Origin: a virus
Length of the DNA stretch: 24,442 bases
IMG/VR virus record: IMGVR_UViG_3300014711_000008
Span: 1 to 24,442 of that record
Reading direction: 5' to 3' (one strand)
Shown in pieces: positions 1,208-21,005 of the stretch; position 1 is the first letter of the stretch; every line of letters starts with the position of its first letter. A model generated the notes under the pieces. The model had not been told where the DNA came from. It saw only the letters and a list, made by a program, of their open reading frames with translations, and did not search any database. Both the position numbers and the translations under genes were made by a program.

Positions 1208-1246
1208 AAGCCGCACAAGGCGGCTTATTGCGGGCGCACTGGCCCC
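1208..1246 (-). promoter_or_regulatory. Two-hairpin 5' leader of the hendecad-protein gene
   Basis: On the minus strand the predicted transcript begins with GGGGCCAGTGCGCCC (1246-1232). It folds as a 5-7 bp stem with a bulge when flanking GC bases are included. An AAGCCGC/GCGGCTT stem with loop CTTGT follows (1226-1208). That second stem is identical to the one ahead of the first late gene at 20774-20791, though the U-tract here is only TTT. The layout matches the leaders at 15417-15467 and 20770-20821. Confidence 0.5.
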
Positions 1247-1252
1247 GCAGAG

Positions 1253-1281
1253 ATTTTACGTCAAGAATCCGGGCCCCACAA
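1253..1281 (-). promoter_or_regulatory. Predicted sigma70-type promoter
   Basis: The minus strand reads TAAAAT (1258-1253, 5 of 6 to the -10 consensus). A weak -35, TTGTGG (1281-1276), lies 17 bp upstream inside the loop of the hairpin that follows the endolysin gene. The 5' leader hairpin starts 6 nt downstream of the -10. The -35 is poor, so the call rests mainly on the -10 and on the same arrangement at two other late promoters. Confidence 0.4.
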
Positions 1282-1291
1282 GGCCCGGATT
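1266..1291 (-). terminator. Hairpin after the endolysin gene, likely terminator
   Basis: A 10-bp stem, AATCCGGGCC / GGCCCGGATT on the minus strand, has a 6-nt loop and starts at the endolysin stop codon. The downstream tail is ATTCTT rather than a clean U-run, so termination would be imperfect. It separates the lysis genes from the next unit. Confidence 0.5.
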
Positions 1292-15211: not shown

Positions 15212-15412
15212 TTATTCCGGCTCGACCGCCACACCCCGAGTTGCCTCATTCGGCAAGTCGAGAAATCTTTTCAGTGCTCTGATCTCGCCCCTCAGCGCTG
15301 CCGTCTCAGTGTCGGAGAGCCCGACGGCATCGTTTTTCTTTCTGGCCAGGTCAAGCTGGGCTTCCGCCCATTTGCGCAACCGGTGCCAGGTGTCAGAGGA
15401 GTAATCAGTCAT
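15212..15412 (-). CDS. 66-aa helical protein between portal and scaffold
   Basis: The protein MTDYSSDTWHRLRKWAEAQL continues with LARKKNDAVGLSDTETAALR and RGEIRALKRFLDLP. It is mostly helical, and from memory similar small proteins follow portal genes in related phages. It is the first gene after the internal late promoter and leader. The ATG at 15412 lies only 4 nt beyond the U-tract of a terminator-like hairpin and has no recognisable Shine-Dalgarno sequence, so initiation may be weak or depend on leader folding. Confidence 0.65.
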   Translation of the reverse strand: MTDYSSDTWHRLRKWAEAQLDLARKKNDAVGLSDTETAALRGEIRALKRFLDLPNEATRGVAVEPE

Positions 15413-15416
15413 TCAC

Positions 15417-15440
15417 AAAAAAGCCAGCTTGGTAGCTGGC
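15417..15440 (-). terminator. Terminator-like leader hairpin with six-U tract
   Basis: On the minus strand GCCAGCT-ACCA-AGCTGGC (7-bp perfect stem, 4-nt loop) is followed directly by TTTTTT. It is a textbook intrinsic terminator, yet it lies after the internal promoter at 15474-15503 and 4 nt before the start codon of the 66-aa gene. It may both end portal-region transcripts and attenuate the internal promoter. Confidence 0.75.
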
Positions 15441-15452
15441 CTGGTAAATTTT

Positions 15453-15467
15453 GGGCGCACTTCGCCC
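15453..15467 (-). promoter_or_regulatory. 5'-terminal leader hairpin of the internal late promoter
   Basis: GGGCGAAGTGCGCCC on the minus strand (5-bp stem GGGCG/CGCCC, loop AAGTG) starts 6 nt after the -10 box, at the predicted transcription start. The last nine bases, AGTGCGCCC, are identical in the leader at 1232-1246. Confidence 0.6.
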
Positions 15468-15473
15468 GAAGAA

Positions 15474-15503
15474 ATTGTAGACCAAACTGTGGTTTGCGTG
15501 CAA
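15474..15503 (-). promoter_or_regulatory. Predicted internal late promoter upstream of scaffold and capsid
   Basis: The -10 TACAAT (15479-15474, 5 of 6) has TTGCAC (15503-15498) 18 bp upstream as a weak -35. It lies in the 131-base gap between portal and the 66-aa gene, a sensible place to boost scaffold and capsid expression. Confidence 0.55.
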
Positions 15504-20510: not shown

Positions 20511-20753
20511 TTAGGCCATCAGGCCCGGTTGGGGTTTGCGGCTGGCCGCCTCTTCATTCCACATCTGGCCGTAGTCTTCCTTGCCTTCTGTGGCCTGCTC
20601 TTCAGGTGCTTCGCCGGTCTCTTCGGCGAGCATCTTGCCAATGAACTGAGCGCATTCGTCAGCGCTTTGGCATTGGTAGGGTTCTGTCATCTCGGGCGAG
20701 GTGACTGTGATCGTGCCGTCGTCGGCCAGCTCGATGGTGATTGTCGTGGCCAT
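20511..20753 (-). CDS. 80-aa acidic protein, first gene of the late operon
   Basis: The start at 20753 (MATTITIELADDGTITVTSP) was chosen over an ATG at 20837. GGAG lies 6 nt upstream of it, and the earlier ATG would lie inside the promoter -10 region. The protein has a short beta hairpin N-terminus, a helical DECAQFIGKMLAEETGE, and an acidic C-terminal part. Function is unknown. It follows the leader with two hairpins. Confidence 0.7.
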   Translation of the reverse strand: MATTITIELADDGTITVTSPEMTEPYQCQSADECAQFIGKMLAEETGEAPEEQATEGKEDYGQMWNEEAASRKPQPGLMA

Positions 20754-20769
20754 GTGGGCTCCAGATGTG

Positions 20770-20791
20770 AAAAAAGCCGCGTCGGCGGCTT
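20770..20791 (-). terminator. Terminator-like leader hairpin before the first late gene
   Basis: On the minus strand AAGCCGC-CGAC-GCGGCTT is a perfect 7-bp stem followed by TTTT (U-tract of six with the stem end). It lies between the promoter at 20828-20856 and the first late gene. The stem is identical in sequence to that at 1208-1226. Confidence 0.7.
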
Positions 20792-20806
20792 GGTTTGAGA
20801 GGTTTT

Positions 20807-20821
20807 GGGACGCACCGTCCC
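20807..20821 (-). promoter_or_regulatory. 5'-terminal leader hairpin of the main late promoter
   Basis: GGGACGGTGCGTCCC on the minus strand forms a perfect 6-bp stem with loop GTG, 6 nt after the -10 box. It would be the first structure of the RNA, or an operator at the start site. Confidence 0.6.
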
Positions 20822-20827
20822 GCGCAA

Positions 20828-20856
20828 ATAGTAGCAAATGCTGAAAAACCGGTCAA
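20828..20856 (-). promoter_or_regulatory. Main late promoter, sigma70-type with extended -10
   Basis: The -35 TTGACC (20856-20851) and -10 TACTAT (20833-20828) are separated by 17 bp, with TGC just before the -10. It faces leftward into the packaging and head genes. Confidence 0.75.
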
Positions 20857-20976: not shown

Positions 20977-21005
20977 TTGACAGTCAACTATCAACTAACT
21001 ACATT
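20977..21005 (+). promoter_or_regulatory. Early promoter, sigma70-type
   Basis: A perfect TTGACA (20977-20982), a 17-bp spacer and TACATT (21000-21005, 4 of 6). The -35 is half of a perfect inverted repeat TTGACAGTCAA (20977-20987), and the spacer holds a tandem TCAACTA repeat (20984-20997); both could be operators. It drives the rightward genes. Confidence 0.7.

Follow-up and report, generated by a model that had tools for sequence, protein, structure and literature searches.

Why would a virus place a transcription stop signal between the promoters of its late genes and the genes themselves? The question is raised by the window analyzed here, a viral contig of 24,442 bases whose head and packaging module is P22/SU10-like and whose kin in GenBank are phages of the HMO-2011 type. 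A sequence-only reading of this DNA had described three minus-strand promoters, each followed by a short hairpin and then by a second, terminator-like one, and had proposed an attenuation or antitermination scheme. The coordinates of the three promoters, and of the 15-mers starting 6 nt after each −10, were correct. A second hairpin indeed follows each of these elements, with a clear T-tract in leaders 1 and 2 and a weak one in leader 3. The features are listed below.

20828 to 20856, minus strand: late promoter 1, with −35 TTGACC (20856-20851), a spacer of 17 nt and −10 TACTAT (20833-20828)
20807 to 20821, minus strand: leader 1 element GGGACGGTGCGTCCC, a 5' hairpin and pause-like site 16 nt after the −10 (G−10 = 20821, Y−1 = C20812, G+1 = G20811)
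20770 to 20791, minus strand: predicted intrinsic terminator 1 (AAGCCGCCGACGCGGCTT plus T-tract; hairpin 20791-20774), preceding the first late gene
20511 to 20753, minus strand: first late gene (80 aa, ATG at 20753), upstream of the packaging genes and with homologues in relatives
15474 to 15503, minus strand: late promoter 2, with −35 TTGCAC (15503-15498), a spacer of 18 nt and −10 TACAAT (15479-15474)
15453 to 15467, minus strand: leader 2 element GGGCGAAGTGCGCCC, pause-like site 17 nt after the −10 (G−10 = 15466, Y−1 = C15457, G+1 = G15456)
15417 to 15442, minus strand: predicted intrinsic terminator 2 (AGGCCAGCTACCAAGCTGGCTT plus T-tract; hairpin 15442-15421), directly 5' of a gene of 66 aa
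15170 to 15189, minus strand: predicted internal late terminator without a promoter of its own, 5' of the scaffold gene
1253 to 1281, minus strand: late promoter 3, with −35 TTGTGG (1281-1276), a spacer of 17 nt and −10 TAAAAT (1258-1253)
1232 to 1246, minus strand: leader 3 element GGGGCCAGTGCGCCC, pause-like site 17 nt after the −10 (G−10 = 1245, Y−1 = C1236, G+1 = G1235)
1208 to 1226, minus strand: terminator-like hairpin 3 (AAGCCGCCTTGTGCGGCTT), whose T-tract is weak here and strong in relatives

The gene of 66 aa (ATG at 15412) comes after the portal gene, and the gene behind hairpin 3, which starts at 1188, after the lysis genes. The start codon of the former lies a few nucleotides from the terminator T-tract and has no Shine-Dalgarno-like sequence (15412-15420, minus strand); in relatives, its ATG immediately follows GGCTTTTTCT. 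The possibility that promoter 3 has no −35 was rejected, since a TTG is present at 17 nt. This −35, TTGTGG, sits in the loop of a CCGGGCC-TTGTGG-GGCCCGG hairpin (1269-1288, minus strand), apparently the end of the lysis operon. The sole other strong promoter-like site near leader 1, an early promoter on the plus strand (20977-21005), is followed by neither the element nor a terminator.

A portal search identified 80 related viral loci, and a search with the leader pattern matched 43 stretches. Leaders were then collected by homology of the downstream gene alone, with no motif required, which gave 49, 71, and 16 sequences for promoters 1, 2, and 3, of which 49, 71, and 15 could be anchored; the statistics exclude three mis-anchored cases (the L132 and L173 entries and the L165 anchor). 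Dozens of related viral contigs have leaders at all three of these late sites, so that the design is present in relatives at all the places where the window has it, and the TTGAC of promoter 1 is kept in nearly all homologous leaders. A composite pattern of −35, −10, element, and terminator occurred two to three times per genome in six relatives of 50 to 55 kb, always at late positions; under slightly looser −10 rules it was found at 17 sites in the 320 kb of these six genomes, against 2 in the reversed sequence. It had no match in four annotated phages outside the group, whose portals are distant. Taken alone, the string GTGCGYCC is about as frequent in the window as chance would predict (5 occurrences against 4.6). 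Its significance lies in its fixed position after the −10 and before the terminator and in its recurrence in relatives, and on these grounds the three-leader observation is real and far beyond chance. Relatives also carry a late-region ferritin-like gene and an early-region protein of the phrog_3704 "ferredoxin" family (L122:4478-4969 and L124:9984-10613).

The second hairpin has the sequence of a conserved intrinsic terminator. Of the distinct leaders of promoters 1, 2, and 3, 41/43, 42/45, and 12/12 have it, where dinucleotide shuffles gave about 1.1, 0.4, and 0.3; in total, 95 of 100 carry it and about 2 would be expected to. In an alignment of 30 sequences, 98.6% of the cells of the stem are paired and the T-tract is also kept; 23 double changes are spread over five of the seven pairs, a level of covariation reached by 0 of 500 shuffles. 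The view that these are late promoters whose genes each have a terminator of their own upstream is thereby upheld, and a terminator before each gene makes antitermination probable. A simple terminator scan of the whole window gave counts no higher than those of shuffled sequence, so the terminators are significant only because of their position and conservation. The internal terminator 5' of the scaffold gene is found at the same place in the relatives G002, G003, G005, and G006. Another strong terminator (GCAG..CCTTCGGG..CTGC TTTTT) stands behind the capsid genes, inside the late region, at L123:7100-7123; it is conserved at the same place in G002, G003, G005, G006, and G008. Three leaders (L074, L080, and L087) keep promoter 2 and the 5' element, have lost the terminator, and have a start codon directly after.

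What the leaders share upstream of the terminator became apparent when they were aligned on the −10. A YGYGYC lies 16 to 18 nt downstream of it, whereas the hairpin's 5' arm moves by as much as 2 nt. Positions G−10, Y−1, G+1, Y+2, and C+3 are invariant in all 33 sequence clusters (less than 80% identity; 21/21, 10/10, and 2/2 for promoters 1, 2, and 3), whereas about 0.8 were expected from controls in which the −10 was held and the rest shuffled (0.62, 0.15, and 0.06). The score used for anchoring rewarded these very positions, and the shuffle control was put through the same test; the fixed spacing is shown independently by an ungapped alignment of promoters 2 and 3. The consensus elemental pause is G−10 Y−1 G+1 (PMC7876045), and the element matches this consensus at an RNA length of 10 to 11 nt. 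The conservation of Y+2 and C+3 goes beyond it, and the middle of the element varies freely. A −10-like NANNNT ending 8 to 13 nt before the pause-like site was found in none of 64 distinct regions. Promoter, pause-like site, and terminator are thus conserved as sequence, at fixed spacing and in three copies per genome.

A candidate for the factor acting at such sites is encoded by all six complete relatives. It is a zinc-finger protein of 150 aa (CxxCxGRGY...CxxCxGxGR), whose gene comes after those of a VRR-NUC protein and an SNF2 helicase on the strand of the late genes. The profile phrog_127, "anti-termination protein Q-like," was matched by 13 of 13 aligned members (best E value, 2e-6) and phrog_6060 by 11 of the 13. 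The best structural match of its AlphaFold model (pLDDT 79) was lambda Q in the engaged complex (7ubn; Z score of 8.7 over 141 residues), followed by AlpA (7xya and 7xyb; Z scores of 8.5 and 8.4) and another lambda Q entry (7.4); unrelated chains reached at most 4.5. Foldseek alone also ranked lambda Q first, with an E value of 0.09. Sequence searches gave no match among annotated phages at an E value of 0.01 and none in the PDB, so the case for a Q-like protein rests on the PHROG profiles and the predicted fold. The protein is below the curated Pfam and NCBIfam cutoffs, and PF03589 had no hit over its cutoff in eight genomes. Judging from G001, the gene is to be expected 1 to 2 kb past the right end of the window.

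The Q-like gene was also seen in other contexts. The mosaic phage L170 shares it (53% identity) and the portal (49%), while the other terminase, replication, and DUF932 genes are unmatched there; its promoter is also the same, and two terminators in tandem stand behind it. A viral contig of 62.9 kb (ends L187 and L188) has a Q-like gene near each end, which means either that the gene is present twice or that the genome is circular and the contig ends overlap. A terminator following directly on a promoter adjoins a gene for a zinc-finger Q-like protein in Pasteurella phage Pmp11 and Pseudoalteromonas phage Y3.

We regard it as likely that the window carries three late promoters of one regulon controlled by antitermination of the Q/AlpA type, and a mechanism that works like Q and AlpA is the best-supported explanation. 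Since the genomes encode a relative of the lambda and AlpA Q proteins, the late stop signals are probably the on-switch for virus assembly and lysis. The course of events that we infer from the conserved sequences, from the start sites and the pause itself to termination in vivo, loading by the Q-like protein, and antitermination, would be as follows. Host RNA polymerase with sigma70 would start at a G 7 to 8 nt after the −10 and reach the consensus pause site after 10 to 11 nt, when sigma may still hold the −10 of the promoter. Without a phage factor, most polymerases would end at the terminator 20 to 60 nt from the start, leaving a short leader RNA. Late in infection, the Q-like zinc-finger protein would be made from the distal end of an early operon and load on the paused polymerase, which, so modified, would pass the leader terminator and the further terminators within the late region. 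Packaging and head, capsid, and tail and lysis-side genes would in this way be switched on together from three places.

The attenuation or antitermination scheme of the sequence-only reading is in outline probable, in a form like that of Q and AlpA and not of put. The reading had taken the 5' hairpin to be the shared unit. The hairpin is common, occurring in all promoter 2 and promoter 3 classes and in many promoter 1 leaders, and the leaders of the window fold as described (z scores of −3.3, −3.3, and −1.0 for leaders 1, 2, and 3), the first hairpin of leader 3 having only 4 bp and beginning at the second G. If it acted in the nascent RNA, either by itself as in put or through a bound protein as with boxB/N or LoaP, antitermination would occur at the RNA level. 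One stem pair covaries between G-C and A-U with both sides changed (7 of 23 sequences), and the two stem-loops of HK022 putL likewise begin immediately after its promoter. However, against the 98.6% pairing of the terminator, three registers of the 5' stem give 72 to 80% of cells paired and no single register fits the alignment. Folding energies are only weakly better than those of shuffles (mean z scores of −0.8, −1.2, and −0.5 for promoters 1, 2, and 3), and about a third of the diverged promoter 1 leaders have no 5' hairpin. The most diverged leaders have lost it or pair differently but keep the pause-like positions, whose distance to the −10 is fixed while the 5' arm shifts. The second hairpin is a predicted terminator and not a put stem, and Rfam gave no match at gathering scores (a permissive search returned Trp leader and RNAI at chance level only). 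In the aligned leaders, no string like boxA was noticed. An RNA-level mechanism is thus unlikely, and the parallel with HK022 put was not borne out; the hairpin is a common feature of these leaders, and it is the pause-like positions that form their conserved core. Such a hairpin could also shield a long-lived late mRNA from decay at its 5' end, as in the leaders of ompA and T7 gene 10, with the second hairpin being a leaky terminator that trims upstream transcription and with no phage antiterminator. Hairpins at or near the 5' end of the RNA are common here and have the shape of these known stabilizers. A terminator after the promoter would, however, silence that promoter, yet it is kept in almost every leader, the pause-like positions are universal where the hairpin is not, and the complete relatives encode the Q-like protein. 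We therefore consider mRNA protection improbable.

Two further explanations act at the DNA, and both have a very low probability. The element resembles ops (GGCGGTAGCGTG), a consensus pause with a hairpin in the non-template strand (PMC5995543), and might with a small hairpin of this kind recruit a NusG paralogue similar to RfaH. The NusG family (PF02357) is absent from eight long relatives and was matched in control genomes, although a host paralogue is possible; the free variation in the middle of the element also argues against this. The palindrome at +1 to +15 might instead be an operator at which an activator or a repressor controls late transcription. In favor of this are the inverted repeats, and leader 1 (20807-20821, minus strand) contains, possibly by chance, the six-base sequence of the AlpA site, GGGACG, together with its mirror image CGTCCC. 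The half-sites vary in distance by 2 nt, the left half is lost in many promoter 1 leaders, and an operator would leave the terminators unexplained. For a phage RNA polymerase using hairpin promoters as in N4, PF00940 had no match in these genomes and none in the control either, and a protein of 1,957 aa had no match in Pfam and no sequence match in the PDB.

Antitermination of the Q/AlpA type has close counterparts and clear differences. Lambda Q, 21Q, and AlpA join polymerase while it is paused near the promoter and take it through terminators. Two DNA elements are required: a −10-like sequence within the initially transcribed region and, in the −35/−10 spacer, a binding site for Q. The arrangement of lambda pR'-tR' and of 21Q resembles ours in its constitutive-looking late promoter, pause or pause-like site, terminator, and zinc-finger protein, so that within the lambda-type parallel drawn earlier the Q, 21Q, and AlpA design is the nearest; the pause of lambda pR' is, however, 16 to 17 nt from the start and has a −10-like sequence, whereas the pause-like site here is at 10 to 11 nt and lacks it. 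AlpA acts at two promoters, and the terminators behind them begin 26 and 54 nt after the start site (PMC7969949). Its regulon in Pseudomonas aeruginosa (PalpB-tB and PA0807) shares with the phages more than one promoter, intrinsic terminators before the genes, and a factor of Q fold, predicted for the phages; here, the promoters are three and serve structural and late phage genes. The AlpA site between −35 and −10 and the −10-like pausing sequence were not found: no convincing motif is common to the three spacers of one genome, where a weak TG at 5/4 nt before the −10 is all that recurs. Since the −10-like sequence, one of the defining cis elements, was looked for and is missing, we do not claim membership of the Q family outright.

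In Escherichia coli, sigma70 pauses at 10 to 15 nt require only the canonical −10 of the promoter (PMC7876045), so the −10-like element may be dispensable here. The elemental-pause motif was, however, not seen near the promoter-proximal sigma70 pauses of that study. Our leaders are like these sigma70-dependent G1p pauses in their canonical −10, spacer of 6 to 7 nt, and distance of 10 to 15 nt from the start, and differ from them in that the pause consensus is invariant and tied to a terminator. We suggest, tentatively, that a consensus pause at an RNA length of 10 to 11 nt, maintained by the −10 of the promoter itself, recruits a Q-family antiterminator during promoter escape. No −10-like element would be involved, specificity would come from the initially transcribed region instead of the −35/−10 spacer, and the arrangement would serve at three promoters per genome as a phage-wide late switch. 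HK022 put shares the two hairpins and a structured RNA right after the promoter; its genes are early instead of late, and no conserved RNA of 70 nt exists in our leaders. In the RfaH/ops system, too, a consensus pause sequence can form a hairpin in the non-template strand, whereas here the element is tied to a promoter and its loop is variable.

Antitermination of the Q type is known from a few lambdoid phages and from AlpA. On the evidence of sequence, a large uncultured group of podovirus-like aquatic phages would use it as the late switch, with three copies in each genome and a pause lacking the −10-like element that has been held to be required. The leaders would offer natural variants for testing what the loading of Q needs. 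Their signature, a −10 followed after 16 to 18 nt by G...YGYC and then by a terminator, may be used to find late promoters in metagenomic phages.
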